DNA of 64,000 nt. Source: Actinomycetota bacterium (GTDB lineage Bacteria > Actinomycetota > Acidimicrobiia > Acidimicrobiales > Acidimicrobiaceae). Numbering within the stretch: position 1 is the stretch's first letter; the number at the start of each line of letters is the position of its first letter. The DNA lies in contig SCQM01000078.1 in assembly GCA_004298555.1 (NCBI GenBank), positions 1 through 64,000 of the forward strand, given 5' to 3'. The translations under genes and the position numbers were made by a program. Shown here piece after piece: positions 2,924 to 61,770 of this stretch. The notes beneath the pieces were generated by a model. That model was given only the letters and a program-made list of their open reading frames with translations, was not told the DNA's origin and searched no databases.

Positions 2924-3391
2924 ATGCGTATCGACTATCACCAATACAATGAGATCGTCCGTCCAATGCATGCACTTTCCGAGGCCGTGAACTCCGGCAC
3001 TCTCGAACCAGCTTTACTTGAGCTAGTGAAGGTGAGAGCTTCTCAGATCAACGGGTGTGCCCACTGCCTGGAGATGCATACCAAAGATGCTCTGGCACTG
3101 GGCGAGTCCGGAGACCGCCTGAATTTGGTTGCTGTATGGCGTGAGGCACCTATGTTTAGCGGGCGTGAGCGCGCAGCCCTTCAGTGGTGCGAGGAGCTGA
3201 CTCTAATATCTCATAGACAAGTACCTGACGAACTCTATGAAGAGATGCTGCGGTTTTTCTCCGAGGACGAGATGTGGAGGCTCACACTTGCCATCACTGT
3301 CATCAACAGCTGGAATCGGCTGGCACTCGCATTCCGCGCCCCCGTTGGAGATTACATTTCAACCAAGACAGCCAATCAAGCCAAAAAATGA
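2924..3391 (+). CDS. carboxymuconolactone decarboxylase/AhpD-family protein
   Basis: A 155-residue all-helical protein with the thiol motif C45-x-x-C48 followed by His52 (NGCAHCLEMH). This is the active-site pattern of AhpD-like alkylhydroperoxidases. The C-terminal NSWNRLALAFR stretch also fits the family. These enzymes use the cysteine pair in peroxide reduction, although many members have no assigned substrate. The start is supported by a good ribosome site (aaggagg) 7 bases upstream. The stop codon overlaps the ATG of the next gene, so the two are translationally coupled. The specific function is unknown. Confidence 0.85.
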   Translation: MRIDYHQYNEIVRPMHALSEAVNSGTLEPALLELVKVRASQINGCAHCLEMHTKDALALGESGDRLNLVAVWREAPMFSGRERAALQWCEELTLISHRQVPDELYEEMLRFFSEDEMWRLTLAITVINSWNRLALAFRAPVGDYISTKTANQAKK

Positions 3392-37937: not shown

Positions 37938-39305
37938 TCATGCGTCATCTTCAGATTTGTCTTTGAGGAGGTTCTCCAGCCAGGATGTGCTTATATTTCC
38001 AGACTGAAAATCAGGATGAGAAATCACTGATTTCAGGAATGGAATTGTTGTACTGATTCCCGATACTTGAAAGTTTTCCAATGCAAGCTGCAGGCGCTTA
38101 AGGGTTTCTTCGCGATCGGCGCCATGGACGATTAGTTTTCCAATCATTGAATCGTAAAATGGCGGGACAATGTAGCCATCGAAGCAGTGGCTGTCAAGTC
38201 TGATACCTTCGCCATTCGGAGCGCTCCACTCCTTGATACGCCCCGGCGAAGGCCGGAAGTTTTCTGCCGGATCTTCGGCATTGATTCGGCATTCCATCGC
38301 GTGACCCGTCAGAACAACGTCGGACTGTGTAAACCAAAGGGGCTCGCCCGAGGCGACACGCAGCTGAGCCTGCACCAAATCAATTCCCGTGACCAATTCC
38401 GTTACCGGGTGCTCAACCTGGATGCGTGCATTCACTTCCAAAAAATAGAATTTCTGCGCTTCCGGATCGACGAGGAATTCCACAGTTCCGGCATTTTCGT
38501 AGGCAAGGTTGCGGGCTATGGAGAGGGCGGCTTGTCTGAGGCCGTCTCTAAGTTCCGGAAAGAGAATGTCTGCCGGTGCCTCTTCGATAAGTTTTTGGTA
38601 CCTTCGCTGGACCGAGCAGTCCCGTTCACCAAGATGAACGACATTGCCGTGCGAATCACCCAGGATCTGGACCTCAACGTGATGAGCCTTGGGCACGTAA
38701 TGCTCGAGATAGAGCGAGCCGTCACCAAAGGCGGCCTGAGCTTCTGCAGCGGCGGAGGCGAGAGCCGGCTCCAATTGATCATGAGTGAACACCAGTTTCA
38801 TCCCCCTGCCGCCTCCGCCCGCAGCCGCTTTGATGAGAAGCGGCCAACCGATTGACTCAGCGACAAGCTCAGCGTGGGCGGCGCTGGTCATCAGCTTTGA
38901 TCCTGGCAAAAGTGGTACGCCCAGCTCTTTCGCTTCTTCACGGGCTTGGAGCTTATTTGCCATTCGCCGCATCGTTTCGCCCTGGGGACCGACGAAGACC
39001 AATCCTTGGGAGCGGGTCATGTCCGCTAGCTCCGGTGATTCTGCTCTAAACCCATATCCGGGATGGATGGCGTCGCATCCCGACCCAAGTGCCACTCCAA
39101 CCAGAGTGTCAATCCTCAGATAGCTCTGGGTTGCCGAGGGGGGACCAATACATATAGCCCGATCGGCCAGTTGAGCGGCCATGCTTTCACGGTCTGCGGA
39201 GGAAACCGCCACAACGGTTTCAAGGCCCAGGCTTCTGCAGGCTCGGATAATCCTCACCGCTATTTCGCCTCTATTTGCCACAAGTACTCTAGATATGTTT
39301 TTCAT
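37938..39305 (-). CDS. accC: biotin carboxylase (AccC-type)
   Basis: Carboxylates biotin on its carrier with ATP and bicarbonate. Domains are complete in 455 residues: N-terminal RVLVANRGEIAVRIIRAC, ATP-grasp loop KAAAGGGGRGMKLV, HVEVQILGD, GERDCSVQRRYQKLIEEAP, FLEVNARIQVEHPVTE and the C-terminal barrel. It is the only biotin carboxylase in the window and must serve the carriers in this operon and perhaps the one at 55.7 kb. It sits 25 bases after the BCCP-like gene and 74 before the carboxyltransferase gene. Confidence 0.95.
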   Translation of the reverse strand: MKNISRVLVANRGEIAVRIIRACRSLGLETVVAVSSADRESMAAQLADRAICIGPPSATQSYLRIDTLVGVALGSGCDAIHPGYGFRAESPELADMTRSQGLVFVGPQGETMRRMANKLQAREEAKELGVPLLPGSKLMTSAAHAELVAESIGWPLLIKAAAGGGGRGMKLVFTHDQLEPALASAAAEAQAAFGDGSLYLEHYVPKAHHVEVQILGDSHGNVVHLGERDCSVQRRYQKLIEEAPADILFPELRDGLRQAALSIARNLAYENAGTVEFLVDPEAQKFYFLEVNARIQVEHPVTELVTGIDLVQAQLRVASGEPLWFTQSDVVLTGHAMECRINAEDPAENFRPSPGRIKEWSAPNGEGIRLDSHCFDGYIVPPFYDSMIGKLIVHGADREETLKRLQLALENFQVSGISTTIPFLKSVISHPDFQSGNISTSWLENLLKDKSEDDA

Positions 39306-39329: not shown

Positions 39330-39803
39330 TCACGGGAGTTCCAATACTTGTATCTTGAACAATTCCTGCTGGTATTCGACTAGCTGGTCCGCTTCAGCGC
39401 AGATCTCCGCAACTCGGCCGGGTTGTCCAGGCGTTACTGGAGTCAGGGTGCCCAGCAGGTCAAGGAATGCCAGTGTGTCATTCACGGACACCTCATCGCC
39501 AGCCTCGACCAGAGGCAGTTCGTCGAAAGGTGATGATCTGCGGAAAACTCCCAGTGCTGGGGCCGCAACGGTGATGTATCTCGTGGGTTGCTCTTGCGGC
39601 TCCAGCGGGTGAGGGGTTGTGCTCTGTAGCAGTTCCAGGGATTGTGTGCTTCGCTCGGACTCACCACTCGGAGGTGTAGCGTTGTGAGTGCTTGTCTTTT
39701 TCAGGTCGAGGACAGTGTCACCGCTCTTGATGTGGAGGTCCGCGAAATGCGATTCCTCGAACGTCCGCAATATCTGTGATATTTCGTATCTGCTTAGTCC
39801 CAA
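39330..39803 (-). CDS. BCCP-like protein lacking the biotin-accepting lysine
   Basis: A 157-residue protein with the AccB layout: N-terminal helix (ISQILRTFEESHFADLHIKSGD), a polar linker to about residue 75, and a C-terminal lipoyl/biotinyl-like fold starting at APALGVF. Aligning it with the carriers at 35.7 and 55.7 kb puts Leu117-Gly118 (in LDLLGTLTP) where they have Met-Lys. It therefore cannot be biotinylated at the normal place. It is the first gene of the minus-strand arm, with a TTG start and the ribosome site aaggaa. It may be a structural or regulatory partner of the carboxylase complex. Confidence 0.8.
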   Translation of the reverse strand: MGLSRYEISQILRTFEESHFADLHIKSGDTVLDLKKTSTHNATPPSGESERSTQSLELLQSTTPHPLEPQEQPTRYITVAAPALGVFRRSSPFDELPLVEAGDEVSVNDTLAFLDLLGTLTPVTPGQPGRVAEICAEADQLVEYQQELFKIQVLELP

Positions 39804-47214: not shown

Positions 47215-49253
47215 GTACGATCGAGCGCAAGTTGTACACCGCCGATTTCGATATTGGCGGCACGTTTACTGACGGTTTCTTCACTGATGGCACACTGGCC
47301 CACAGGGCAAAGGTCTTTACCACCCCCCATGACTTGACTGAGGGATTTCTTGGTTGCCTGCAGCTCGGGGCTGAAGCTTTCGGTGAATCTCTGAATGGCT
47401 TTTTGGGATTCACCCATGTGGTGCGGCTCTCCACCACGCTGGGCACGAACACTCTGCTTCAGAGGCGTGGACCCAAAGTTGGTCTGATCGTGACTGCCGG
47501 CTCGGAAGCCAACCTTTACGCTCCAGACGGTAATCCGGGTGCTTTTGAATCAATACTCGATCCCCGGTTTGTGAGGGGACTGAATGAAGCAGTTGACGAA
47601 ACTGGAAAGGAGTCGGTTTTTCCTCCCTCATCCGAGGTTCTCACTGCAGTGCGCGAGTTGCTTGAAATGGGTGCTCGCATTATAGCCGTAAGCCTTAGGA
47701 ACAGTTGGCGTAACCCGATTCATGAGAAGAGGGTGCGCGAGATAGTTCTCGAAAGGTATCCGGTTCATTATATGCGGTCAGTCCCTTTGCAGCTTGCACA
47801 TGAGATCACTTCGAGTGATGACGATCATTCGCGTACCAACACAGTTGTGCTCAATGCGTACCTGCATCGAGACCTGTCGCGCGGCCTGTACAAAGCAGAC
47901 GATTTGGCCCGTCAGAATGGGATGCGGCATCCGCTCCTGGTAGTAAATGCTGCCGGCGGCTCGGCGCGTGTTGCCAAGACTGTTGCTGTGCAGACCATGT
48001 CGAGCGGTCCGGCCGTAGCAGTCCGCGGAGCAGCAATAATTGCCAAGCAGCTGAAGTTGGATCACGTGGTATGTGCCGATATGGGGGGCACAAGCCTGGA
48101 TGTCGCGGTCATAGATGGCGCCGAGCCTTCGCTTGTGGAAATGCCCGAAATCCACGGAATGAAGATTGCCGTGCCGGTGATATCTACGGAATCCATTGGT
48201 GCCGGCGGCGGGAGCATCGCCAGGGTGGTTGATGGCAAACTGAGAGTTGGGCCAGACAGTGCAGGCTCAGTACCGGGTCCTGCGTGTTACGGTAAAGGAG
48301 GTCAAAATCCGACAGTCACCGATGCAAATCTTGTACTGGGTCTTATAGAGCCCGCCAACTTTCTTGGTGGAAGAATGCGCCTGGATTTAGATCGTGCCAG
48401 GGAGGTCTTGGCGAAACGTATCGGAGCTCCGCTTGGAGTGGATGTGGAATCGGCGGCTGCCATGATCCGTGCGTGCGTGAACACAACGATGGCAGATGAG
48501 ATTCGCAAACGCATAGATTTGAGCGCCACATCTCCATCGCAGTACGCATTCTTTGCATTTGGAGGCGGCGGCATGCTGCACGCTTGTGACATAGCCGAAG
48601 AAGCGGGAATCACCAAGGTGGTTGGTTTTCCATTCGGATCAGTTTTTAGCGCATTTGGATCTTCGACAGTGGACGTTTGGCACAGATATCCGAGAAGTCT
48701 TGCACTTCAAATTGACAACCCCTGGTCGGAAAGTGTCCTTATCAATACCGTGGAAGGACTGCTAACCCAGGGAAGGCTGGACATGAAAGGCGAGGGATTT
48801 GAGGAGCCAGAGCTGTCGGAGTCGTTTCAGCTTGTGGTTGAGACGGCGGATGGCCGTGAAGACTTTGTCTTCAAATCAATTCATGATGTGCCTGGGATAT
48901 ATGATGCCGTGCGAACAAGCCACCCAGGTTCTGAGTTGCGCGAGGTGGTATTCGATATCCGGGCCGAAATGCCTACCTGGCTTCCTGCTCCGGGATATGC
49001 GGGTCCGGGCGAAATGCCTGGTTCAACAGTCAGAAAAGTTCGATGGTCCAAGGACGGACCTGCCGTGGCGACTCCGGTTTTCAAGTTAGAGAATTTGGGT
49101 AAAGGTTCCTCGATGTCAGGTCCGGCACTAATCGAGACAAAGGACACGGTATTTGCAGTGAAGTCGGGATGGTCGAGCCGGATCGACCAATTTGGCAACA
49201 TTGTCATGGAGTCCAATTCCTCCAGCGGGGAGGGTCAGTTAATTGACAGGTAA
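47211..49253 (+). CDS. HyuA-like ATP-dependent carboxylase/hydantoinase subunit, copy 2
   Basis: A 680-residue paralogue of the gene at 42129. Motifs are DFDIGGTFTDGF near the start, STTLGTNTLLQRRG, CADMGGTSLDVAV, SIGAGGGSIARV, PGPACYGKGG and the late GPALIETKD. Acetophenone carboxylase also contains two different HyuA-type subunits, unlike acetone carboxylase with one. The C-terminus is Ser-rich. The stop lies 11 bases inside the next gene, which starts at a TTG. Confidence 0.89.
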   Translation: MSTIERKLYTADFDIGGTFTDGFFTDGTLAHRAKVFTTPHDLTEGFLGCLQLGAEAFGESLNGFLGFTHVVRLSTTLGTNTLLQRRGPKVGLIVTAGSEANLYAPDGNPGAFESILDPRFVRGLNEAVDETGKESVFPPSSEVLTAVRELLEMGARIIAVSLRNSWRNPIHEKRVREIVLERYPVHYMRSVPLQLAHEITSSDDDHSRTNTVVLNAYLHRDLSRGLYKADDLARQNGMRHPLLVVNAAGGSARVAKTVAVQTMSSGPAVAVRGAAIIAKQLKLDHVVCADMGGTSLDVAVIDGAEPSLVEMPEIHGMKIAVPVISTESIGAGGGSIARVVDGKLRVGPDSAGSVPGPACYGKGGQNPTVTDANLVLGLIEPANFLGGRMRLDLDRAREVLAKRIGAPLGVDVESAAAMIRACVNTTMADEIRKRIDLSATSPSQYAFFAFGGGGMLHACDIAEEAGITKVVGFPFGSVFSAFGSSTVDVWHRYPRSLALQIDNPWSESVLINTVEGLLTQGRLDMKGEGFEEPELSESFQLVVETADGREDFVFKSIHDVPGIYDAVRTSHPGSELREVVFDIRAEMPTWLPAPGYAGPGEMPGSTVRKVRWSKDGPAVATPVFKLENLGKGSSMSGPALIETKDTVFAVKSGWSSRIDQFGNIVMESNSSSGEGQLIDR

Positions 49254-50424
49254 AAGTGGACCTCTCGCCGATATAAAGGTAGTGGAAATAGCGAGTTTTA
49301 TCGCGGGCCCCTATGCCGGCCAGCTTCTGGCTGATTTAGGAGCTGACGTCGTCAAAGTGGAGCCGCCGGGCAAAGGCGACCCATTCAGAGCGTTTGCAGG
49401 TCAAAACTATTCTCCCAATTTCGTCGGTTACAACAGGAACAAGAGGAGCATCGAGGCGGATATCCGAAGCGAGGCCGGTCAGGAAATAGTCAGAGGTCTC
49501 GTGCAGCGTTCCGATGTCCTGGTTGAGAACTTCCGGCCTGGAGTAATGAGGCGCTTCGGCCTCGACTACCCAGCCATGAGACGGTTGCGCCCGCAGATAA
49601 TTTATTGTTCAGTGTCTGGTTTCGGCCAGGATGGACCTTCGGCTGGCCGGCCGGTTTATGACACCGTCGGCCAGGCACTTGGCGGATTGCTGAGCCAGCT
49701 GATCGACCCAGAGCATCCGCGCATTATCGGTCCCGCTTTTACTGATGGTTTAGCTGGGCTTACTGCGGCCTACGGGATACTTGCTGCGATTCACGCGCGC
49801 GACTTGAGCGGTGTCGGCCAACATGTTGATGTTTCGATGTTCGCCTCCACGATTGCTTTTTTGTCCTCGGAGGTGGCCAGATACTACCGTACCGGAGAAC
49901 TGGGAGGACCTCGCAGCCGTCCGAGCATCAGCCAGTCCTATGCCTTCACGTGCAGAGATGGCCGGGTGATAACAGTGCACCTGTCGTCGCCACTAAAGTT
50001 CTGGCAGGCCTTTGTGGCTGCTATTGATAGGCCTGATTTGCTCGATGATCCACGGTTTGATACTCGTGAAGGCCGAATACACAATTTTGAGGAATTGCAT
50101 GAGCTTCTTGCTCCTTTGTTCCGCACAAGGGATCTAGACGACTGGCGCAGAAGCTTCTCTGCTTTCGACGTTCCCCACGCGCAAGTGAATACAATCCAGG
50201 ATGTCTTTCTGGAACCCCAGGCAAGGCATTTAGGTTTGGAACTTCGCATGAAGCATCCGAGCGAGGGCGAAGTCGTGACTGTGGCACCTCCAGTGATATT
50301 TTCAGATACTCCTGTGGCCAATTTAAGTCCGCCGCCAAGCCTTGGGGAGCACACGCGGGAAGTACTTGGTGAACTCGGTTTCACGCTGGCAGATCCTCAT
50401 GAATCTCAAAAAGAAGGAAATTAG
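49243..50424 (+). CDS. CaiB/BaiF-type (class III) CoA-transferase, copy 2
   Basis: A 393-residue CoA-transferase. Signatures are GADVVKVEPPGKGDPFRAF, NRNKRSIEADI, LVENFRPGVMRRFGLDY, the catalytic Asp region FTDGLAGLTAAYGILAAI and a late FDVPHAQVNTIQD. The start is TTG with the ribosome site ggggagggtcag, inside the last codons of the HyuA gene, so translation is coupled. It may activate the carboxylated product as a CoA thioester. Related to the copy at 34.4 kb through shared SQSYA and HLS-P-KFW blocks. Confidence 0.92.
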   Translation: MTGKSGPLADIKVVEIASFIAGPYAGQLLADLGADVVKVEPPGKGDPFRAFAGQNYSPNFVGYNRNKRSIEADIRSEAGQEIVRGLVQRSDVLVENFRPGVMRRFGLDYPAMRRLRPQIIYCSVSGFGQDGPSAGRPVYDTVGQALGGLLSQLIDPEHPRIIGPAFTDGLAGLTAAYGILAAIHARDLSGVGQHVDVSMFASTIAFLSSEVARYYRTGELGGPRSRPSISQSYAFTCRDGRVITVHLSSPLKFWQAFVAAIDRPDLLDDPRFDTREGRIHNFEELHELLAPLFRTRDLDDWRRSFSAFDVPHAQVNTIQDVFLEPQARHLGLELRMKHPSEGEVVTVAPPVIFSDTPVANLSPPPSLGEHTREVLGELGFTLADPHESQKEGN

Positions 50425-50426
50425 AA

Positions 50427-51281
50427 ATGATCAAGGCAATCGATATTCATGTGCATGGACATGACGAAGCTGCAATTCAAGCTATGGGTGCACGGAATGC
50501 CCAGATGGGAAAGTATTTTGGCAAGGAAATGGAGCCCGTATCCCTGGATGAGCTTGCGGACCGCTACAGGCAAAAGGAGATGATGGCGGTTCTGGTAAAT
50601 ACCACCGACGTTAGTTCCACTGGAATTCCACCGGTCCCAAACGACCATATCGCACAAGCCGTCAAGCGCAATCCGGATGTTTTCATAGGCTTCGGCGCTG
50701 TTGATCCATGGCAGGGGAAGCTTGCCGTTGACGAAGCGAAACGGTGTGCAGAAGAACTTGGCCTCAGGGGGCTTGGCGAGCTAAACCCGGGACGCCAGGG
50801 TTTTTATCCCAACGACCCGCGCTTCTATCCGTTGTGGGAAATGGCCAGCGACCAGGGACTGGTAGTTCTGCTGCACGGAGGGATGATGGGTGCGGGTGCA
50901 GGTACACCCGGGGGTATGGGTTTTAAACTCAAATACACCCGGCCAATTCCGTATATCGATGATGTTGCAGCCGACTTTCCAAAGCTCAAGATCATTGCTG
51001 CGCATCCTTCATGGCCATGGCAGGAGGAGAGCTTGGCGGTGGCGAGACACAAAAGCAATGTTTATATAGATTTGAGCGGATGGGCGCCGAAGTACTTTCC
51101 AGAAAGCCTTGTGCATTACGTCGACACCATATTGCAGGATCGTGCGCTCTTCGGTTCGGATTGGCCGGTCCTTGATCCGGACAGATGGTTGGCCGAATTT
51201 GCCGAGTTGCCAATTCGCGAAACCTCTCGGCAAAAAATTTTACTCGACAACGCATGTGCGTTATTTGGCATTCAGGTATGA
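50427..51281 (+). CDS. amidohydrolase-2-type metal-dependent hydrolase/decarboxylase
   Basis: A 284-residue TIM-barrel protein of the group that contains ACMSD and gamma-resorcylate decarboxylase. The metal motif DIHVHGH is at residues 6-12, a second His is in VLLHGGMMG, a third in IAAHPSWPWQEE, and the acidic residue in ALFGSDWPVLDPDRW. The family catalyses C-C or C-N cleavage, including non-oxidative decarboxylation and lactone hydrolysis. The gene begins two bases after the CoA-transferase gene and is the last of the tightly packed operon that starts at 41773. Confidence 0.86.
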   Translation: MIKAIDIHVHGHDEAAIQAMGARNAQMGKYFGKEMEPVSLDELADRYRQKEMMAVLVNTTDVSSTGIPPVPNDHIAQAVKRNPDVFIGFGAVDPWQGKLAVDEAKRCAEELGLRGLGELNPGRQGFYPNDPRFYPLWEMASDQGLVVLLHGGMMGAGAGTPGGMGFKLKYTRPIPYIDDVAADFPKLKIIAAHPSWPWQEESLAVARHKSNVYIDLSGWAPKYFPESLVHYVDTILQDRALFGSDWPVLDPDRWLAEFAELPIRETSRQKILLDNACALFGIQV

Positions 51282-51485
51282 GGCACTCTCTTGGAGCTAG
51301 GCGGGAGAGTCGGATTGGGGGGGGAAGATAAGGGTAGTTACTCGAAGCAAGTGAGAAATGGCAAGGCCTTGAATCAATGCCGGAATTGGCAGACTGCGAA
51401 AGCGCCAGAGGCTTGACAAAGGGGTTTCAGACATCAGTTACAGGAAACATGTATAAGTATTGGATCTCCGAATTGGGGGAAGCAA

Positions 51486-52772
51486 ATGAGTGTTTGGTTT
51501 CGAAACCATAGAGTTTCGATAGATAAGAAGAGCGGCGGCCCGGGTTTGCAGAGTGAATCGGAACTTGGGGGTTCCAAGAGAGGCCGCGGCATAATTACCG
51601 GCCGGAGGCTGCTTCTGGGAGCGCCTCTGATGTCAGTTGCACTTTTGGCTGGCGCTTGCGGAAGTTCAAGCACAGCGTCAAACTCTTCGCAGAGTTCGGG
51701 TTCTGGCGCCACGGCTACAACTGCTTCGGGCAACTCGAACGCGGCATTGAAGGCGAGTCTTGACAAATTGACTGGTGTTCCCACCTTCAAGGCTCCCGGT
51801 CCGGCGTTCGACGCTTCGAAGCTGGCAGGCGGCAAGATCGTGTCTATCGACTGTGCACCTTCTGCTGCGCCGCCGGCTCAGACCACTGCAGCCACCGTGG
51901 CAGCAGGAAAGGCGGCAGGGCTCAACGTGACAGTGCTTGCAGGAGGGAACGAGGATATTCCACTTGATACGCAGTTCATTGATCAGGCTATCAACCTCAA
52001 ACCCATTGCAATAATCACTGTTGGATGCACTCCGCCTCTGCTGACTGTGCCTCTTCAGGCGGCAAAGAATGCAGGTATTCCGGTTGTCTGCGCGAATTAC
52101 ATCCCGCCTGTGGTCGGAGCTCCTGGCCAAGGTTGTGGTCCGCTGGCATTTGGCGACGCCATGCAGCCCGCTTCTGAGGGAACTGTCCTGGCGGAAGAGA
52201 TTGCGCTGAATGGTCCAAAGAACGCAAAGATCGGGTTTCTTTCTGCAGACGAAATAGCCGGTTCACCTGCCGTTGAGAAGACCTTCAAGGCGGGGCTGGC
52301 CAAGTACTGCCCGAGCTGTCAGCTCGTAGACGTCCAAAATGTCAATCCTGGCAACTGGGTAACGTCACTTACCCCGACGATTACCTCAATGTTGACGGCG
52401 CATCCTGATCTGAACTATCTGATACCTGTGTTTGACGGCATGACACCGTTTGTTAGCGCAGCGATGAAGAGTTCAGGCAAGGCATCTTCGGTCAAGGTGC
52501 TCACGACCCAGGGAAGCACAGGCGCCGCAATGACCAACATCTCTAATGGCACATTTATGGCAGATGTCGGCTCATCGGATACTTGGGTTGGATGGACTGC
52601 AATTGACCAGGCGATGCGTGCGGCATTGAAGTTGCCACCGGAAGCGAACCCAGCGGTACCCATAAGGTTGGAGACAGCCGCATCGATACAAGGCGAGGAT
52701 CCAAAGAGTGATTCAGCAATATATGGCGATAGCTATGTGCAGGGCTTCAAGACTCTATGGGGTCTGGGTTGA
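51486..52772 (+). CDS. ABC transporter substrate-binding lipoprotein (sugar/ribose type)
   Basis: A 428-residue lipoprotein. The N-terminal signal includes a twin-arginine-like TGRRLLLG and ends at the lipobox LAGAC with Cys58, followed by a Ser/Thr/Ala linker. The mature part resembles periplasmic-binding protein type 1/4 (ribose-binding-like), with VGCTPPLLTVPLQAAKNAGIPVVC, NAKIGFLSADEIAGSPAVEKTF and SWVGW-like tail segments. The ligand need not be a sugar, because this family also serves nucleosides, autoinducers and other compounds. The gap before it (51282-51485) contains a ttgaca box at 51413, but I see no -10 box at the right distance. Confidence 0.86.
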   Translation: MSVWFRNHRVSIDKKSGGPGLQSESELGGSKRGRGIITGRRLLLGAPLMSVALLAGACGSSSTASNSSQSSGSGATATTASGNSNAALKASLDKLTGVPTFKAPGPAFDASKLAGGKIVSIDCAPSAAPPAQTTAATVAAGKAAGLNVTVLAGGNEDIPLDTQFIDQAINLKPIAIITVGCTPPLLTVPLQAAKNAGIPVVCANYIPPVVGAPGQGCGPLAFGDAMQPASEGTVLAEEIALNGPKNAKIGFLSADEIAGSPAVEKTFKAGLAKYCPSCQLVDVQNVNPGNWVTSLTPTITSMLTAHPDLNYLIPVFDGMTPFVSAAMKSSGKASSVKVLTTQGSTGAAMTNISNGTFMADVGSSDTWVGWTAIDQAMRAALKLPPEANPAVPIRLETAASIQGEDPKSDSAIYGDSYVQGFKTLWGLG

Positions 52773-52840
52773 TGATGAAATTCATGGGCATGCGGAGCGA
52801 AACCGGCCGCGAGCATGAGAATGAAATTCAGGGAGATCCG

Positions 52841-53875
52841 ATGAGCAAGCCATCAGGTCAAGCTGTTAGCCCCGCCGGGAGGGCGGGGCTAACAGCCGCA
52901 TCCGGCCAGGGGGGCCAGCAAGCGGTTCGATCATTTCTAAAGCGCTACCTCGTCGCCATTCTCGTTCCCCTTCTCCTGATTCTGTTTTCAATTTTGGCCC
53001 CATCGACTTTTCTGACCGCCAACAACTTTCAGACGATTCTGACGACCAATGCAGTCTTGATAATCCTTGCAGTTGGCGAAACTATCGTCTTGGTGACCGG
53101 AGAGTTTGATTTCAGCTTCGGTGGAACTCTGGGAATTTCCGCAGCCATCGTAGTGATGATGATCACCAATATGCACGGGGTAAACAGCGCGGAGGCAATA
53201 ACGGTGTCATTCTTGGCAGCCCTGTTTATCGGGATTTTGAATGCCTTCTTTGTAATCGTCTTGCGCGTCAAGTCCTTCATTGTGACGCTCGGAATGGGAA
53301 CGTTGACTACCGGAATTGGGCTTGGAATAACTGGTTCGCAGACCGTTTCCAATCCTTCGAAGTTCTTGACAACCGTGATGACAAAGCATATTTTCGGCGT
53401 GGGTCTGCCCTTTTTCTACGGTTTGATCATGGTGATTGGGCTGTGGGTGGTCTTTGAGTTCGTAAAGACCGGGCGGAACATGTATTTCGTCGGCGAAGGA
53501 CGAAAAGCAGCGTTTCTCGCCGGCATACACGTGAACCGGATTCGGGCCGGGGTATTAATCCTGTCGTCGGTGTGCGCATGGCTGGCAGGGATGGTGATGC
53601 TTGGCCAGACCACTGCGGTTGATGCCACATATGGCGGCCCGTATCTGTTGCCGGTGTTTGCGGCGGTGTTTCTAGGGTTCACCACGATACGATCCGGCCG
53701 GTTCAATGCGCTCGGAACATTTGTCGGAGTGCTCGTGCTTGCAATTGGCAGTACGGGTCTGGAAGTGCTTTCCGTGCCGTCGTGGATCACCCAGGTGTTC
53801 GATGGTGGGGTTCTTGTCATTGCCGTAGCGCTTGCCAACATCCTTGGTGGCGAGAGGATTGATCAGTGGGCGTAG
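52841..53875 (+). CDS. ABC transporter permease (RbsC type)
   Basis: A 344-residue permease with about 8-10 membrane helices. Typical RbsC segments are LILFSILAPSTFLTANNF, ILAVGETIVLVTGEFDFSFGG, VIVLRVKSFIVTLGMGTLTTG and the ATPase contact GEGRKAAFLAGIHVNRIR. I chose the ATG at 52841 with gggaga upstream; an ATG at 52772 would add 23 residues. The first ~30 codons contain a very strong hairpin (52862-52896), described separately. The first predicted membrane helix begins after about residue 32. Confidence 0.9.
   Translation: MSKPSGQAVSPAGRAGLTAASGQGGQQAVRSFLKRYLVAILVPLLLILFSILAPSTFLTANNFQTILTTNAVLIILAVGETIVLVTGEFDFSFGGTLGISAAIVVMMITNMHGVNSAEAITVSFLAALFIGILNAFFVIVLRVKSFIVTLGMGTLTTGIGLGITGSQTVSNPSKFLTTVMTKHIFGVGLPFFYGLIMVIGLWVVFEFVKTGRNMYFVGEGRKAAFLAGIHVNRIRAGVLILSSVCAWLAGMVMLGQTTAVDATYGGPYLLPVFAAVFLGFTTIRSGRFNALGTFVGVLVLAIGSTGLEVLSVPSWITQVFDGGVLVIAVALANILGGERIDQWA
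52862..52896 (+). repeat. 15-bp perfect inverted repeat in the first codons of the permease gene
   Basis: The arms gctgttagccccgcc (52862-52876) and ggcggggctaacagc (52882-52896) are fully complementary around a 5-base loop. In RNA this is a very stable G/C-rich hairpin, seven codons after the start. It lies between the binding-protein gene and the main body of the permease gene, where hairpins often protect upstream mRNA and lower downstream translation. Confidence 0.9.
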
Positions 53876-53950
53876 CCGAGGCCATGTATTGGGTCTACGT
53901 GAGTGCGCGCCATGGTCGGCGGATTTGCGTTGGAATTGAAAGGGAGAGAG

Positions 53951-55546
53951 ATGGTTGCCGGACAAGTTGCCCTTGAAGTCAAAGGTCTTAGCATGCGATT
54001 CGGTCCCGTGACAGCGCTTGATGGATTGTCGCTCAAGATCGAACAGGGTGAAATCCATGGCGTGGTTGGTCATAACGGATCTGGCAAGTCCACTTTCGTG
54101 GAGGTCCTTGCGGGGAGCCATGTCCCTAACGACGGACAGATGGAGCTCTTTGGCAATCCAGCCGACTTCCCAGGTGCTTCACGAGCGAGAGAGAAGTACC
54201 CTTTGATAGTGGTCCATCAGGACGTGGGTCTTGTGGGTTCTATGTCGGTGGTAGACAATTTCAGGGTCAACCGCTTCAAACGCGGAGCTGCGGGAGCCAT
54301 CCGCTGGCACGCCGAGCATGAGCTTACCCGCCAGCGCCTTTTGGCACTTGGTGTTGACATAGATCCAAAGACGCTAGTTGAGGACTTGAGTTCCTCAGAT
54401 CAGATGTTGATCAGCGTTGCCAGGGCACTTATGGATTTGGAGGAGATTCGTGAAAGGGCGGTTCACAAGGATCAGGCAATCCTGATATTGGATGAGCCGA
54501 CGTCGAGCCTTCCTTCTGGAACTGTCGATTCATTTCTGGACACGATCCGCGATGTCAATCGCAATCTGGGCACGACAGTGATAATTGTAAGTCATAACCC
54601 CAGGGAAATCATGAGCCTTAGCCACAGGTTCTCGGCTCTAAAGAACGGGCTTTTGGTTGGGACATATGTGACCGGGCAGGTGAACTATCCTGAACTTGCC
54701 GCACTGATGGCGGGGCAAAGCGGGAAAGACTTCGAAGCGTCGGGTCATGCTGGAGAGCTGAGATCAAGGGCCAGAATCAGCAATTCGCAGGAGCCAGCCA
54801 AGGTATTGAGCGTCTCAAACCTCATTGGACGCCGGGTCAAAGGCATAGATTTCGAGGTCTCAGCGGGTGAGATTGTTGGCATTACCGGACTTTTGGGTTC
54901 GGGATATGAGGACATCCCTTATCTATTGTGTGGATCGCAGGCCAGAGAATCGGGCCAGGTGGTGCTCAAGGACAAGGAACTCCATAAAACCAATCCCCGC
55001 AGTTTCAAAGAAGCCGGCGCTGTGCTGCTTCCAGGCGATCGCCAGCTGACAAGTGGAATTCAGACTGCTACCGTGCGCGAGAATATGACAATGGGTCATT
55101 TGAGCCCCTTTACTAAGCGCGGGCTCCTGAGGCACCGCAAAGAGCGCCATACTGTTGCGGGAATGATGGGCAGGCTGCGCATCAGCCCGGAAAACCCTGA
55201 TCGTCCCCTAAATGAGTTCAGTGGCGGGCAGCAGCAAAAGTCGCTGATAGGAAGATGCCTGCTCAGGTCGGCAAGCCTGATTGTAATCGATGAACCGTGT
55301 ACAGGAATTGATGTCGGTGCACGGAACGAGATCCATTCGACCTTGAGGGAGATCACAAACTCAGGTTCTGCAGTGGTTATTACCTCTTGCCAGTATGAAG
55401 AGTTGCCGATGATCTGTGACCGGGTTGTCGTTCTACAGAGTGGCCAGGTTGTCGGCGAGCTGTCTGGCGACGAAGTCACTGAGGAGAGGATCCTCAAGCT
55501 TTGCTATATGGATGCACCACAATCAAGCCAGGAGTCCAAGGTCTAG
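53951..55546 (+). CDS. ABC transporter tandem ATPase (RbsA type)
   Basis: A 531-residue protein with two ABC domains. The first has an intact Walker A (GHNGSGKST) and Walker B (AILILDEPTSSLP), but its signature motif reads LSSSDQML, which departs from LSGGQ. The second has the relaxed Walker A typical of RbsA-type second halves (GLLGSGYEDI), a good signature motif (FSGGQQQKSL) and LIVIDEPCTGIDVGARNE. I chose the ATG at 53951 with aaagggagag upstream; a longer frame from 53903 adds 16 residues. It completes the importer with the two preceding genes. Confidence 0.9.
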   Translation: MVAGQVALEVKGLSMRFGPVTALDGLSLKIEQGEIHGVVGHNGSGKSTFVEVLAGSHVPNDGQMELFGNPADFPGASRAREKYPLIVVHQDVGLVGSMSVVDNFRVNRFKRGAAGAIRWHAEHELTRQRLLALGVDIDPKTLVEDLSSSDQMLISVARALMDLEEIRERAVHKDQAILILDEPTSSLPSGTVDSFLDTIRDVNRNLGTTVIIVSHNPREIMSLSHRFSALKNGLLVGTYVTGQVNYPELAALMAGQSGKDFEASGHAGELRSRARISNSQEPAKVLSVSNLIGRRVKGIDFEVSAGEIVGITGLLGSGYEDIPYLLCGSQARESGQVVLKDKELHKTNPRSFKEAGAVLLPGDRQLTSGIQTATVRENMTMGHLSPFTKRGLLRHRKERHTVAGMMGRLRISPENPDRPLNEFSGGQQQKSLIGRCLLRSASLIVIDEPCTGIDVGARNEIHSTLREITNSGSAVVITSCQYEELPMICDRVVVLQSGQVVGELSGDEVTEERILKLCYMDAPQSSQESKV

Positions 55547-55682
55547 TACCTGGGGATTGAACAGGTGCGCCTAGCCAGCCCGGGGGATCCTGCCGTGCTC
55601 AATGCGGGGAGTAGACGCCAAATGGGAGATCTTGTAAATCGCGTGATCTGTATTGTTTCAATGCATAACAGGAGGTACGGGC

Positions 55683-56228
55683 TTGACAGAGAAACATTTG
55701 TTGTGCAGCAAAGATCTGACATTCCAGGAGGTGCTGGAGATCTTGGAGGTGGTAAAGAACAGTGATTGGGGGGATGTTGAAATAGAGTCTGGAGGTTCCA
55801 GCCTCAAAATCGCCCGATCAAATCGGCCTATGCGGGTCAGCGAAGGTTCCGCCGCTGATGCAGAAAGAATTGTAAGTAGGACCGATGAGAGAAAAGAGCC
55901 GGTGAATGAGGACATCGGGAATTCGAGCCCTGCCAAGCCACCCTCCCGGCCCCATGGTCGCCAGGTGGACCTGACGACTGGGGTGCCTGTAACACCACCT
56001 ATGGCTGGCATCTTTTACAATGCCCCTTCTCCCGGTGCCCCGGCTTTTGTTAACGAAGGCGACAGTGTCAAAAAAGGCCAGCAAGTTGGCATAGTCGAGG
56101 TCATGAAGCTATTCACGCCTGTCATTGCTCCATGTGCCGGAACTGTCAGGAAAGTTCTCGTCAAGAATGAGGAATTTGTTCACAATGACGAGATCATCAT
56201 GGTCATAGAGACATTGGAAGAATCATGA
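55683..56228 (+). CDS. biotin carboxyl carrier protein (AccB-type), copy 2
   Basis: A 181-residue carrier. The N-terminal AccB helix (FQEVLEILEVVKNSDWGDVE), a polar linker and a biotinyl domain with the acceptor Lys142 in EVMKLF are all present. The start is TTG with a near-perfect ribosome site (aggaggt) seven bases upstream; a longer frame reaches 55653. Its stop overlaps the ATG of the carboxyltransferase gene by four bases. No biotin carboxylase gene is adjacent, so it may be charged by the enzyme encoded at 37.9 kb or accept carboxyl groups from its partner. Confidence 0.91.
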   Translation: MTEKHLLCSKDLTFQEVLEILEVVKNSDWGDVEIESGGSSLKIARSNRPMRVSEGSAADAERIVSRTDERKEPVNEDIGNSSPAKPPSRPHGRQVDLTTGVPVTPPMAGIFYNAPSPGAPAFVNEGDSVKKGQQVGIVEVMKLFTPVIAPCAGTVRKVLVKNEEFVHNDEIIMVIETLEES

Positions 56229-57772
56229 CAGTTTTGGAATCAGAAGGGATCACCGCGGCTGCAATCGCGGCAGGCAAAGACCCAGATGCCCGTGTCTGCG
56301 CCAAGCCCCTGCGCTTTCTCGATGAAACGCTTCGCAACGGCCAGCAATCGTTATGGGCTACGCGCATGAAGACGAAGTCCATGCTGCCGATAGCACCAGT
56401 AATGAACGAGGCTGGTTTTGACGAGATCTGCGCAATGGCGGGCGTGTCATTTGAGACGTCTGCAATGTACCTCTTTGAGGATCCATGGGAGAGGATTAGG
56501 CTCCTGCATCAGCTAATGCCTTCGACAAGGCTCGACGGACTCGTCCGCGCCAGGAACCTCTGGGGTTGGCGGAGCCAGCCATATGACGTGCAGGAGCTTT
56601 TTCTGAAGACTCTGCTACGCAACGGCATGGACAGTATCAAGGTGTTCGATGGACTGAACGATTACCGAAACCTGGCATGGCTTGTCAATAAGGCCAAGGA
56701 TCTAGGTTTCAAGGTGAAGGGGCTGGTCGGGTTCGCGCTGACCCCGGCTCACACCGATGAGTACCTGGCTAAAAAGGCGTCAGAACTCATGGATCTAAAT
56801 GTGGATGCGCTGGTTTTCACTGACTCGGCTGGCCTTCTGTATCCGGAGCGCTGCAAAAGTGCGGTCACCGCAATTAGGGAGGTGATCGGCGAAACTGAGA
56901 TGCACTTTCACTCTCATACGATTACTGGATTGGCAAATGACTGTTACAGAGAGGCGATTCGTGCGGGGGTGGATGTAGTGTGGACCGCCGCCAGGCCGCT
57001 CGCCTATGGCAAGGCAGTTCCCTGGACCATGGACGTGTTGCAAATGGCCATGGACGAGGGCCGGGAGACGATGCTTGATGAGAGCAAGATTCGTGAGATC
57101 GATGACTGGTTCTACTGGGTTGCTCACGAAGAGGGCAAGCCCATTCCTGAGGAGGTACGTTTCGATCCTGCCTTCTATCAGCAGTACGCCGGGCATCAAA
57201 TTCCGGGAGGAATGTTCTCGAACATGGTTAAACAGCTCGCCGATCTCGGCATTGAGCACCGTTTGCCAGAGGTGTTGGAGGAAACCGCCCGAGTGCGAGC
57301 CGAGTTGGGACACCCGCACATGGTTACCCCTTTCTCACAGTTTGTTGGGGTTCAGGCAGTTCTAAATGTCATGGAAGGCAAGCGGTACTCCAAAGTTCCC
57401 GAGGAGGTGCGTTTGTACGCCCGCGGCTACTATGGGCTTCCCATCCATCCCCTGGATCCCAATATTCAGGATCAGCTGATAGCGGGAGAGAGTCTGCTCG
57501 ACCCGCTGGAAGGGCTCGATGAGCCCAGTCTGCCAAGGATACGGGCAGAGCATGGGCCATTTGATTCCGACGAGGATCTTCTGCAATTTTTGTTCCTCAA
57601 TCCGAATGCATATAACAACTTCCGGAAGTATCGAAAGCCGATCACCTGGAATCCTACCCGGTCTCCACTCGTGTCTTTGATAAAGGAGCTTTCTAAAGAG
57701 ACCGGCCTTAGTTCTGTTCAGTTCTCCCGCGGCTCACTGAAATTGAAACTCACTGCAGCAAAAGATGCATGA
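56225..57772 (+). CDS. carboxyltransferase-like subunit, copy 2, with an altered active site
   Basis: A 515-residue carboxyltransferase of the pyruvate carboxylase B/oxaloacetate decarboxylase type. The metal residues are conserved: Asp33 in FLDETLRNGQQSLW and His229/His231 in HFHSHTITG. At the position of the carboxylated lysine (Lys174 in copy 1) it has Thr199 in LVFTDSAGLL, and the DG after Arg is NG. KVFDGLND, PGGMFSNMVKQL and VTPFSQFVGVQAVLNV are normal. The loss of the lysine suggests another reaction, a different lysine, or a non-enzymatic role. Coupled to the BCCP gene upstream. Confidence 0.86.
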   Translation: MTVLESEGITAAAIAAGKDPDARVCAKPLRFLDETLRNGQQSLWATRMKTKSMLPIAPVMNEAGFDEICAMAGVSFETSAMYLFEDPWERIRLLHQLMPSTRLDGLVRARNLWGWRSQPYDVQELFLKTLLRNGMDSIKVFDGLNDYRNLAWLVNKAKDLGFKVKGLVGFALTPAHTDEYLAKKASELMDLNVDALVFTDSAGLLYPERCKSAVTAIREVIGETEMHFHSHTITGLANDCYREAIRAGVDVVWTAARPLAYGKAVPWTMDVLQMAMDEGRETMLDESKIREIDDWFYWVAHEEGKPIPEEVRFDPAFYQQYAGHQIPGGMFSNMVKQLADLGIEHRLPEVLEETARVRAELGHPHMVTPFSQFVGVQAVLNVMEGKRYSKVPEEVRLYARGYYGLPIHPLDPNIQDQLIAGESLLDPLEGLDEPSLPRIRAEHGPFDSDEDLLQFLFLNPNAYNNFRKYRKPITWNPTRSPLVSLIKELSKETGLSSVQFSRGSLKLKLTAAKDA

Positions 57773-57823
57773 TCAGAATATTCGCTGGAAAACAGGGGGC
57801 TATCCCCGGTTTGCTTTTAGAGA

Positions 57824-58897
57824 TTGGATGACTCGCAAATGGAAATGATTGCCCGATATGGAGCTCCTGCTACGCGGCTGATTACGCTTCTGAAGTCGCT
57901 TGACTACCCTTTGCGTGATGTTCGCGAGGGAGACAATTTCGTAATATTGACTGATGATGCCATGGATCCGCTTATCTGGCAGGCGACGATGGCTGGCCTG
58001 CATTCACGTGGTGCAGAAGCCCTCCTTTGTCTTTATCCCCGGCGAAGATACCACTGCGCGGATCCATCACCATTGGCGGTCGCTGCAGCCAAGGAGGCAG
58101 ACGTTGTAATTGCACTGACAACCACGGCCTTGAACAGCGGTACTCCCGGTTTGCGCGCCATACGCTCCGAGGGCGGCGGCCGGGGTAAAACGCCGATTTG
58201 GCTCTGGGAGGAGCTGAACCAGGAGATTTTAATAGAAGGCGGAGGAAGTGCGACTGCGGATGAAGTAGCAGAGATGTGCGAAATCCAGCGTCGAGTTGGA
58301 GCCGTATATGACCGGGGCACGACGATCCACGTAACGTCTGCGAGCGGTACCGACCTTGAAGCGGATATCTCTGGTTACCCTGCTGATTCGCTGGCGGATC
58401 GCTGGGGCAAGATCCCATTTGGGCGTGACCCCGAAACCAGAAAACTTGGCGGGGGCACGTGGCCATTTGGGGAGGTCCACGTTGAGCCGAAGCCGGGCTC
58501 GGCCAATGGCGTCGTGGTATGGGATCAGACTGCGCATTACCCTGCGGGCCAATGGCGCAATTCTGTGCGGCTGCAGGTTGAAAACGGTCGGGTCGTAGAT
58601 ATAAGTGGCGGAATCGAAGCGAGAGAGGTCCGCTATTACCTTGAGACCTATGGAGATGCGAACACCCTGAAGCTTGGCGGTGAGATTGCTCTTGGTACAA
58701 ATCGTCGCTGCCCGCCGCTGACGGGAGCCATGCGAAGCGAAAAAAAGCGCTACGGAGCCATGCATCTGGGTATCGGTCACGGGGCCGACCGGGGCGAAGT
58801 TAACAGCACTTTGCGTTTGGAAGGCATCATCGACCAGGTGACAATTGTGGTCGATGGAGAGCATGTGGTGGCTAAAGATGGGGACATACTGGTCTAG
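57824..58897 (+). CDS. aminopeptidase M29-like protein 1 (COG2309 / dihydroxypyridine-dioxygenase-like fold)
   Basis: A 357-residue protein whose second half looks like leucyl aminopeptidase T/AmpS and the related 2,5-dihydroxypyridine dioxygenase NicX. Similar segments are PFGEVHVEPKPGSANGVVVWD, LKLGGEIALGTN and GAMHLGIGHGADRGEVNST. The usual late His-x-Asp of the metal site appears as RLEG, so the metal centre is altered or the reaction differs. The start may be TTG at 57824 or ATG at 57839. It lies 51 bases after the carboxyltransferase gene and is followed by a distant paralogue. Confidence 0.6.
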   Translation: MDDSQMEMIARYGAPATRLITLLKSLDYPLRDVREGDNFVILTDDAMDPLIWQATMAGLHSRGAEALLCLYPRRRYHCADPSPLAVAAAKEADVVIALTTTALNSGTPGLRAIRSEGGGRGKTPIWLWEELNQEILIEGGGSATADEVAEMCEIQRRVGAVYDRGTTIHVTSASGTDLEADISGYPADSLADRWGKIPFGRDPETRKLGGGTWPFGEVHVEPKPGSANGVVVWDQTAHYPAGQWRNSVRLQVENGRVVDISGGIEAREVRYYLETYGDANTLKLGGEIALGTNRRCPPLTGAMRSEKKRYGAMHLGIGHGADRGEVNSTLRLEGIIDQVTIVVDGEHVVAKDGDILV

Positions 58898-58936
58898 ACC
58901 TCTGGTCTTTTACGTGTTTGCAAGGAAGGATTTGCA

Positions 58937-60322
58937 GTGTGTGATGAAGCTTCGGAGGGTACGGTCATTCCTCCAGATGTATCTGTTGAACGGCCTCCGG
59001 CTGCTCTTGGCGTGACGGAGATTAATGGAGAGACTGAATTGCAGAGCGTCGCGCGTCACCTAATGGATATACCTGAACAGCGGTCTGCACATCTGGGTTC
59101 GATTGGCTATGGCGGGACCCGCCCTGGGGATAAGGTTCTCGTGGCTGTTGACAGATCCTATGATCCCGAGGTTGTGAGCGCCGTCGTTGGGGCTCTTCGT
59201 GAGAGAGGTGCACTAGTCGACGTGATGTGGAAGGACTCTGGACCGGACCGTTTATTCGATGAAGTGGACGAATTGGAGGTTGCTATCCGCTATGAGCCTT
59301 GGCGTGATCGCCCGCGTCGATGGGAAGGTGATCCCAAAATTGAGGACATGGCCGTGCATGAAGGTTATGATCTGCTGGTTCACGGCCGTGGAGGTCCAAC
59401 GGGAGCAACTTCTTTCCGCTACGAGCAGATTCCCTGGTTGTCAAAAGATCATTTCAGCCGCGAAATCATTAATTATCCGTCAGAAATTATCGCCCTTTCG
59501 TCTCAGATCACATGGGATGCGATTTGGAATCGCGGCCGTGGCGGACGCGTCAGGCTGACAGATTTAGAAGGTACGGACATCTCGTATACCCTCGACGAGA
59601 CTTACTGGGACGGAACTCATCACGGATGGATACCTGAACCCAAGAGATGGTACGGACACCTCTTTGGTCACCCGACACCGCCGCTACCCTACGCTGATGC
59701 TGCAGGCATCGTCAAAGGCACTACTTCACATTTCAGCCGCGCTTTTCCTCAGATAAATCTACAGATCGAGGATGGCCAAGTCCGTTCTGTCGAAGGGGGA
59801 GGACGGTATGGGTTGGCTTGGGCGGAGAAGTTGGAGGAGACCAAGGGCATCAACTATCCCGGTTTTGTCCGTCCCGGACTTTTCAATCTTTGGGAGGCGG
59901 CAATAGGGGGCCATCCCAAGGTCAGGCGCGCCGAGTCAATCGAATGGTGGAGTTCGGGTGGATTCGAATGGGAGCGGAGACGTTCGGGAGTAATCCATCT
60001 TGGATTTGGGACATTCTGGCGTGGCCCAGATGAAGCATGGGCGGCAGAAAGGGGCTTGGCCTATGGTCATTTGCACGTTCACCTGCTGTTCCCAACTTTC
60101 GTTGTCGAAACACTTGACGGTGAGCAGATAACCCTGGTTTCGCGAGGCCGTCTTTCCGCACTTGATGATCCACGCGTACGCCATCTGGCGGAAAGATATG
60201 GCGATCCGGATGAACTACTCCGTGAGAGTTGGATTCCCAGCATTCCAGGCCTGACTGCTCCGGGGGACTATGAGAATTACGGCGCGGACCCAGCCTCCCA
60301 CATTTATGGGGCCATTTCATAG
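58937..60322 (+). CDS. aminopeptidase M29-like protein 2
   Basis: A 461-residue protein with a GTG start and the ribosome site aaggaagga. The N-terminal part has a nucleotide-fold-like stretch (GDKVLVAVDRSYDPEVVSAVVGALRERGALVDVMW), as in the first domain of M29 aminopeptidases. The second half has GTTSHFSRAFPQINLQIEDG, VIHLGFGTF and a histidine-rich HLHVHLLFP. It is a distant paralogue of the preceding protein, about 100 residues longer. Function unknown; it may act on a non-peptide amide or ring. Confidence 0.55.
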   Translation: MCDEASEGTVIPPDVSVERPPAALGVTEINGETELQSVARHLMDIPEQRSAHLGSIGYGGTRPGDKVLVAVDRSYDPEVVSAVVGALRERGALVDVMWKDSGPDRLFDEVDELEVAIRYEPWRDRPRRWEGDPKIEDMAVHEGYDLLVHGRGGPTGATSFRYEQIPWLSKDHFSREIINYPSEIIALSSQITWDAIWNRGRGGRVRLTDLEGTDISYTLDETYWDGTHHGWIPEPKRWYGHLFGHPTPPLPYADAAGIVKGTTSHFSRAFPQINLQIEDGQVRSVEGGGRYGLAWAEKLEETKGINYPGFVRPGLFNLWEAAIGGHPKVRRAESIEWWSSGGFEWERRRSGVIHLGFGTFWRGPDEAWAAERGLAYGHLHVHLLFPTFVVETLDGEQITLVSRGRLSALDDPRVRHLAERYGDPDELLRESWIPSIPGLTAPGDYENYGADPASHIYGAIS

Positions 60323-60456
60323 GGGATGGTTTGAAACGATTTATAGAAGAGCCGGTCATTTGTGTTGATTTCCAGGCGGCGACTTAAAACAGAGGCCTCC
60401 TGCCTCTGACAAAGCGACTTAGCCTAGACAGCGAATATGTGAAAGAAGGTGCGAAT

Positions 60457-61770
60457 ATGAGCAAGTTGAGCTGGGAAGGATTTCCAATTGGCGCTGCTCC
60501 CACCAGGGAACTGCTGCAGTATATTCCACAACTATCGTTGGCGGAACGCGACAGACGATGGAGCGAAGTCCGGACCCGGATGGCGTCTAAGGGGATAGAC
60601 GCATTGCTATTGGTTGGAAATGACAGTTTCTTCGGCATGGGAACAGTGAATCTTAGATACCTCACTCAGGTGGGTTCTGTCTTTGGCGGTTACGCGTTGT
60701 TTCAGGCCGATGATGACCCGGTCGTCTGGAACAGCAATCAGCCCCAGATGCAAAGACCGACGAATCCCTACCTGGGAACGCAGGAGTGGGTTTCGGATAT
60801 TCGAATCAATCATGGCGTGGAGGCAGTAGCTGGAGAGTTGCGCGACAGGGGCCTTGAAAAGGCAACTATCGGCCTTGCTCCTTTTAGCTCGACTTTGGTT
60901 ACGATTCCGCTCATTTTTCAAGCTGAAATGGAGTCGCTCCGCCGCGAGCTTCCCAGTGCGCGCGTGTTGGACGCAGCTAGCATTCTCCAGGAGTTAAGGC
61001 AGATCAAGAGCCCGGAAGAAATCAGCCTTCTCACCAGTGCTGCGCAAATAGCCCGCAAGGCGGTTGATGCAATGATCACAACTGCCAAGCCGGGCATGAC
61101 CGAGGCCCAGGTATATGCGGAGATGGTAAAGGCCCAGATTGTAAATGGTGCTGAACCATCAGTATTCAATCTTCTTTCTTCTGGTCCAGTCGACCATAGT
61201 GAAAGCGAGATCTGGCACTTGCTTCACGGCGCTGAGCAGCCTGCGGCACCAAGCATGCGTCCGCTGTCAAAAGGAGATGTGGTCATTAGCGAGTTCCATA
61301 CCCAGTATGGCGGATATCTCGCAGCAACCGAGTTTTCTGTTTATGTGGGGCAAAATGCGCCTGAGAAGCTAAAGGATGTTTGGAAGGTCTGTGTTGAATG
61401 TTTTGACGCCACCCTGGAGGTCATGAAGCCCGGTAAGACTCTAGAAGAAGTGTGGAAAGCAGTGAGGCGCCCTGCTGAAGTGGCAGGCATGGACTTTGTG
61501 GAACTTGGTTTTCATGGACACGGAATGGCCTCACCCGAGTTCCCTACCGTGGTTCACCGGCCGGAAATGGGTGGTCCAAAATCCATGTGCGGTGAAGGGA
61601 TCGAAGAGGTCGAAATCCAGGAGGGCATGGTTTTCGGAAACAACATTGATGTCTACAATCCGAAATGGAAGATGGATGTCGGATGCATGTATGGCGATTT
61701 GGTCGTAGTCGGGCCAAGCGGTGCGGAACCGCTCGTTCACGTGCCGCGGGAACTCCCGGAATCTGTTTGA
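60457..61770 (+). CDS. peptidase M24/creatinase-like protein
   Basis: A 437-residue two-domain protein: an N-terminal creatinase-type domain (MASKGIDALLLVGNDSFFGMGTVNLRYLT) and a C-terminal pita-bread fold (RQIKSPEEISLLTSAAQIARKAV, KPGMTEAQVYAEM). The five metal ligands of aminopeptidases are largely missing: the first Asp region reads VVISEFHTQYGGYLAATEF, and the last Glu region MYGDLVVV. The His in GFHGHGMASPEF is kept. This pattern fits creatinase-type C-N hydrolases that work without metal, rather than an Xaa-Pro peptidase. The ATG at 60457 has agaaggtg upstream. Confidence 0.8.
   Translation: MSKLSWEGFPIGAAPTRELLQYIPQLSLAERDRRWSEVRTRMASKGIDALLLVGNDSFFGMGTVNLRYLTQVGSVFGGYALFQADDDPVVWNSNQPQMQRPTNPYLGTQEWVSDIRINHGVEAVAGELRDRGLEKATIGLAPFSSTLVTIPLIFQAEMESLRRELPSARVLDAASILQELRQIKSPEEISLLTSAAQIARKAVDAMITTAKPGMTEAQVYAEMVKAQIVNGAEPSVFNLLSSGPVDHSESEIWHLLHGAEQPAAPSMRPLSKGDVVISEFHTQYGGYLAATEFSVYVGQNAPEKLKDVWKVCVECFDATLEVMKPGKTLEEVWKAVRRPAEVAGMDFVELGFHGHGMASPEFPTVVHRPEMGGPKSMCGEGIEEVEIQEGMVFGNNIDVYNPKWKMDVGCMYGDLVVVGPSGAEPLVHVPRELPESV

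Follow-up and report, generated by a model that had tools for sequence, protein, structure and literature searches.

Pyruvate carboxylase, OadA and transcarboxylase 5S are described as having a carboxyltransferase (CT) site built around a carboxylated lysine and a metal. In the 2.1-Å cryo-EM structure of L. lactis pyruvate carboxylase (LlPC), the metal ligands are His732, His734, Arg533, Asp534 and carboxylysine 703, the substrate is held by Arg606, and biotin is met by Thr867 and Ser870 (PMC9581989). Among characterised enzymes, the phosphophenylethanone carboxylase HpeCBA (and XccBCA, the form in Aromatoleum) has the layout closest to that of the locus described here (PMC9618137). The open-access literature searched, subscription papers being outside its scope, contained no description of CTs that lack the lysine. 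In the window (the whole 64,000-nucleotide stretch analysed), we investigated the second of two CT genes, copy 2. At a little below even confidence, we regard its product as the CT of a three-component carboxylase (biotin carboxylase (BC), BCCP and CT) in which the carboxylysine metal site has been dismantled and which is likely metal-free or has a non-essential metal.

Copy 2 scored above the Pfam cut-offs for PF02436 (PYC_OADA; 111.7 bits, cut-off 27) and PF00682 (HMGL-like; 35.4, cut-off 29). It fell under the NCBIfam equivalog cut-offs for PRK09282.1 (domain model; 391 vs. 402), oadA (346 vs. 756) and PRK12330.1 (5S; 268 vs. 827). The PDB relatives matching it best were 5ks8 (two-subunit pyruvate carboxylase), 2nx9 (OadA) and 1rqb (transcarboxylase 5S). 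An AlphaFold model, computed with the window proteins and related loci as input (only 10 sequences; mean pLDDT 81), superposed on 5ks8_D with Z 45.5 over 434 residues at 2.1 Å, and on 5S with pyruvate (1rqh) with Z 40.8. By its predicted TIM-barrel-plus-funnel fold and its aligned catalytic Arg, Thr and Ser, copy 2 is a PycB-type CT, and by the same alignment the canonical metal site is absent.

Table 1. Features of the window and lysine-less biotinyl-domain proteins of related loci.
Feature	Sequence	Position	Strand	Remarks
CT, copy 1	window	36376-37863	-	canonical D/K/H/H ligands
BC of the copy-1 operon	window	37938-39305	-	motifs intact; closest BC that could partner the copy-2 BCCP
Pseudo-BCCP	window	39330-39803	-	lysine-less biotinyl-domain protein
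CaiB-type (class III) CoA-transferase	window	49243-50424	+	head of the gene run
Amidohydrolase_2 family protein	window	50427-51281	+	upstream; conserved in one congener contig
ABC-transporter periplasmic substrate-binding protein	window	51486-52772	+	
ABC permease	window	52757-53875	+	
ABC ATPase	window	53903-55546	+	two ABC_tran matches
BCCP, AccB-type, 191 aa	window	55653-56228	+	biotinyl Lys152 (EVMKLF); stop codon overlapping the start of CT copy 2
CT, copy 2, 515 aa	window	56225-57772	+	PycB/OadA/5S fold; ligand columns N38 T199 H229 H231
Asn38 (codon AAC)	window	56336-56338	+	metal-ligand Asp column (LlPC Asp534); by alignment and spacing
Thr199 (codon ACT)	window	56819-56821	+	carboxylated-Lys column (LlPC carboxylysine 703); by alignment and spacing
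M29-like protein	window	57824-58897	+	distant relative of 2,5-dihydroxypyridine dioxygenase NicX
461-aa protein	window	58937-60322	+	no family assigned; conserved in congeners
M24/creatinase-fold hydrolase-like protein	window	60439-61770	+	
Pseudo-BCCP	L034	5657-6100		
Pseudo-BCCP	L035	~5597-6010		
Pseudo-BCCP	L036	~2692-3084		
Pseudo-BCCP	L094	~5333-5692		
Pseudo-BCCP	L041	9771-10127		

Ligand columns were assigned in the alignment by residue spacing and cross-checked against LlPC numbering. Full-length pyruvate carboxylases in the alignment carried Asp/Arg/Lys/His/His/Thr/Ser at offsets 0/72/169/198/200/333/336, which are exactly those of LlPC D534/R606/K703/H732/H734/T867/S870. The Asp-to-Lys distance in the OadA row was 161, the same as from Asn38 to Thr199 in copy 2. 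The copy-2 site read by these columns is Arg37, Asn38, Arg108, Thr199, His229, His231, Thr368 and Ser371, with R108, T368 and S371 at the columns of LlPC R606, T867 and S870. Half of the four side-chain metal ligands are thus replaced (Asp by Asn, carboxy-Lys by Thr), and both His stay. The original prediction had placed Thr199, in LVFTDSAGLL, at the carboxylated-lysine position and the two metal His as kept, and the alignment with PycB, OadA and 5S bore this out: the Thr aligns gap-free to their Lys and occupies that column in its stead. Judged by this alignment, copy 2 is a genuine CT homologue in which the carboxylated lysine is replaced. The metal Asp, which had also been described as kept, is not, because the ligand column after the Arg reads LRNGQQ and falls on Asn38. 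Asp33 of LDETLRN, probably the residue that had been taken for the ligand, was rejected because the metal ligand follows an Arg (Arg533-Asp534 in LlPC) and the spacing to the Lys, His and Thr columns fits residue 38 only.

Conservation was examined in a core family of 10 intact members, comprising copy 2, three actinobacterial sequences and six proteobacterial sequences. The three congener orthologues came from two genomes of its genus and were 84% identical to copy 2. The six proteobacterial orthologues (56–65%) came from Xanthobacter, Maricaulis, Lutimaribacter, Sulfitobacter, a Burkholderiaceae MAG and another genome from the Lutimaribacter family. Asn38, His229 and His231 were present in all ten, and R37, Q41, R108, T368 and S371 were invariant across the core clade. 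At position 199 the four actinobacterial members carried Thr and the six proteobacterial ones Ser. The Thr itself is therefore shared only with the congeners, and what is conserved throughout is the replacement of the lysine. Synonymous sites between copy 2 and its congeners were saturated (pS 0.79–0.81) at a pN of 0.11–0.13; going by these values, the gene is under strong purifying selection. A sequencing error or pseudogene was rejected on the same values and on the agreement of the 10 sequences. The family is rare: counting the seed genomes, it was found in 2 of 346 sampled genomes of the Lutimaribacter family and in 1 of 385 of the Xanthobacter class. One congener genome (G003) contained two copy-2-type CTs (L009 and L015), both N/T, on separate contigs.

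The wider family was investigated using 67 CT rows, 42 with the canonical D/K/H/H ligands and 25 degenerate. Copy 2 fell in a clade of 13 rows (SH-aLRT 98) with zero canonical members. Its ligand columns read N-T-H-H or N-S-H-H, and three deeper relatives read M-A-S-H (Rhodoferax, L039), N-A-Y-H (L077) and D-Y-N-H (L064, on a long branch), so the whole clade lies off the canonical site. A second, separate clade of 11 rows carried D-Y-H-N, D-E-H-H or D-G-H-H ligands; its loci were L086 (G146), L047 (on a Rhodococcus pyridinivorans plasmid), L083, L084, L066–L070, L049, L012 and L085. The Glu at the carboxy-Lys position in this second clade is a natural carboxylate mimic. In L086 and L047 the CT adjoins genes for a PPDK-type kinase, an AMP-ligase and a thiolase, which suggests phosphorylation and carboxylation of a ketone. 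An extra D-E-H-H row (L021/L095, on contig C10 of G003) had an in-frame TGA, with its CT beside a BC and a BCCP, and may be a decaying gene. A single origin for all 25 degenerate sites was rejected (joint clade, AU p = 0.0014).

The rest of the catalytic machinery persisted in the degenerate rows. Specifically, R37, R108 and T368 were kept in 25 of 25, Q41 in 24 and S371 in 23; R108 was kept in just 18 of the 42 canonical rows. An Arg or Lys at position 257 occurred in 20 of the 25 degenerate rows vs. 1 of the 42 canonical ones. Relocated Lys or Arg residues (K165, R110, R257) were considered as a metal substitute and set aside; for 257 there are only two to three independent pairs, with which no test has power, and K165, which L077 and L064 lack, begins strand 163–169 and is not at the catalytic end.

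The strongest competing explanation, in our estimate unlikely but well short of negligible, is an active carboxylase with a rearranged site, in which a metal would be held by His229, His231, Asn38 and Thr/Ser199 together with water or the substrate. It stays a strong rival mainly because the H-H-N-T/S set is fixed in the core family; the invariant His together with the fixed Asn and Thr/Ser fit it as well as they fit our favoured view. The related DRE-TIM aldolases hold their metal with an Asp and two His and no carboxy-Lys, and one of them, 1nvm, was also among the structural matches of the copy-2 model (Z 31.7). Serine as a metal ligand is documented in NicX (PMC7910607), which likewise counts for the rearranged site. 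However, Asn and Thr, both neutral, bind metal only weakly, and the sister branches reading M-A-S-H and N-A-Y-H retain at most two ligands, yet have not lost BC, BCCP or the catalytic Thr. A dispensable metal is favoured mainly because different ligands have eroded in each relative and the remaining machinery was kept. The bridging ligand of another kind that had been proposed for copy 2 survives as one option, but metal loss is at least as likely, since the Asp is also replaced and the nearest relatives lose further ligands. On our best reading, copy 2 is a new PycB/HpeB-type CT variant with its metal centre rearranged or absent.

The gene run around copy 2 was also compared with those of its relatives. 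The window and congeners share the order ABC transporter, BCCP, CT, M29-like protein, 461-aa protein and M24-like protein, with BC absent; in one congener (L032) an OCD/mu-crystallin family gene lies between the M29-like and 461-aa genes. All intact core-clade loci whose sequence extends far enough contain an M29-like gene. The partner BCCP has its biotinylation lysine intact, as first described, and the biotinyl Lys was present in all 11 partner BCCPs. It also holds that no BC adjoins copy 2: none lies beside the copy-2-type CT in the window gene run or in the congener contigs L031 and L032, and the nearest is that of the copy-1 operon, 17 kb off. The genome has two BCs, this one and another, fused to a BCCP, on contig C139. 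A congener genome (G001, 94% complete) yielded one BC, of the fused type, so the BC partner of the actinobacterial copy 2 is uncertain. Among the genes from 49243 to 61770, no Pfam or NCBIfam match to OadB or OadG, the partner subunits of Na+-pump oxaloacetate decarboxylase, was found. The genome's three canonical D/K/H/H CT paralogues (copy 1 and those on contigs C138 (L002) and C196 (L004)) all lack the substrate-carboxylate Arg, its column being a gap, G or S; pyruvate-like acids are therefore probably not their substrates.

The proteobacterial loci differ in having their BC at hand. Five intact loci (L034, L035, L036, L094 and L041) share the fixed order M29-like protein, lysine-less biotinyl-domain protein, BC, BCCP and CT. 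These five are the intact proteobacterial orthologues whose contigs reach far enough, and each has BC and CT in one gene run; the relative L039 does as well. The BCs read keep the ATP-grasp and ERDC..QRR motifs, the partner BCCPs keep their Lys, and the copy-2-type CT is the sole CT of the operon. At the Sulfitobacter locus, annotated TRAP-transporter genes come next; reading of the sequences gave putative DctP/TRAP-like frames near L036 and L094, and an ABC ATPase-like gene lies upstream in L034. A conserved biotinyl-domain protein without the biotinylated Lys immediately precedes BC in the copy-1 operon as well as in the five intact proteobacterial operons, with G, R, D, C, R and N at the lost column in these six pseudo-BCCPs. 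The most divergent clade-I CT (D-Y-N-H; L089 on contig C6 of G185) has a paired BCCP and no BC nearby, like the actinobacterial operon. Two plasmid loci (L042 and L043, of Caballeronia and Cnuibacter) carry canonical CT-BCCP-BC operons whose neighbours encode either acetoacetate decarboxylase plus carbonic anhydrase or BioY, 3-oxoacid CoA-transferase and thiolase; these operons look like biotin-dependent ketone carboxylases.

The fixed proteobacterial gene order, with its intact-looking BC and BCCP, points to an ATP-dependent carboxylase rather than to a decarboxylase or a transcarboxylase. One of the latter two was the original prediction, drawn from the missing adjacent BC, and the intact BC in the proteobacterial gene runs speaks against it. 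A BC-less role, in which the actinobacterial BCCP and CT would take CO2 from a donor acid or pass it between two CTs, seems to us improbable. The empty neighbourhoods of the window, L031 and L032 and the single, fused BC detected in G001 fit it, and any of the three canonical paralogues could supply the partner half. Against it stand the BC-bearing loci (the five proteobacterial ones and L039), the BC within the window itself and the lack of an OadB/OadG-type partner among the nearby proteins examined. Least probable is a catalytically dead CT that scaffolds or regulates, for instance, the canonical paralogues: two of four ligands are replaced and relatives lose more, but no core-clade member deviates at R37, Q41, R108, T368 or S371, a biotinylatable BCCP of its own is always paired, and the protein is the only CT in the proteobacterial operon.

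In the three-component carboxylase that we favour, BC would charge the BCCP biotin with CO2 at the expense of ATP, and BCCP would swing the charged biotin into the CT barrel. The CT would pass the CO2 to a small acidic substrate, presumably a carboxylate, held by Arg108. Thr368 would shuttle the substrate proton to biotin and Ser371 would contact biotin, as in pyruvate carboxylase. Lewis-acid activation by a carboxylysine-bound metal would be lost, leaving a site that is most likely metal-free or has a loosely bound, non-essential metal. With less help toward an enolate, the CT may depend on a substrate that is acidic in itself or that reacts as a nitrogen nucleophile. Since BC is intact in all five proteobacterial operons, the ancestral activity would most simply be ATP-dependent carboxylation. 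The constant M29-like partner could, speculatively, act on the carboxylated product. The actinobacterial operon without a BC, and the fused BC as the only one found in G001, count against the three-component reading.

Extended to the family, the proposal would be that carboxyl transfer proceeds without a carboxylysine metal centre, and conceivably with no metal at all, throughout one PycB-type clade and in another, unrelated one whose Lys was lost independently. A sufficiently acidic substrate, or a nitrogen nucleophile needing no metal-stabilised enolate, could be the reason; we advance this slightly more hesitantly than the assignment of copy 2. A CT type with a dismantled site may, going by these alignments, sometimes work without the textbook metal centre. 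Natural CTs that keep all the other catalytic residues, BCCP and BC but not the metal site offer a direct test of the metal's part in CO2 transfer from carboxybiotin. They are also a warning that annotations as 'pyruvate carboxylase subunit B' cover enzymes with differing active sites and unassigned substrates.

Compared with known systems, the copy-2 family resembles HpeCBA/XccBCA in its separate BCCP, its PycB-like CT without a fused BCCP and its BC, in a catabolic operon. CT rows from loci of HpeCBA-like layout (kinase, BCCP, BC, CT, HAD) belong to the same large family as copy 2. These rows, assigned by locus layout (L044, L046 and L048), keep D/K/H/H and lack the substrate Arg. The HpeCBA operon includes a PPDK-type kinase and a phosphatase; the copy-2 family has the M29-like gene instead. 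NicX (7cn3) is a distant relative of that M29-like neighbour (E = 9.9e-9). The neighbour is probably not a NicX-type dioxygenase, because the NicX iron ligand His265 aligns with Glu282 of its family; its AlphaFold model (pLDDT 51) was too poor to use. 5S (1rqb/1rqh) and OadA (2nx9) have the barrel and the ligand spacing in common with copy 2, but they have the canonical metal site and are partnered by 12S or OadB/OadG, not by BC. PycAB (5ks8) was the best solved-structure match by both structure and sequence and shares the catalytic Arg, Thr and Ser, but Thr and Asn in copy 2 stand in place of PycB's carboxylated Lys and its Asp.
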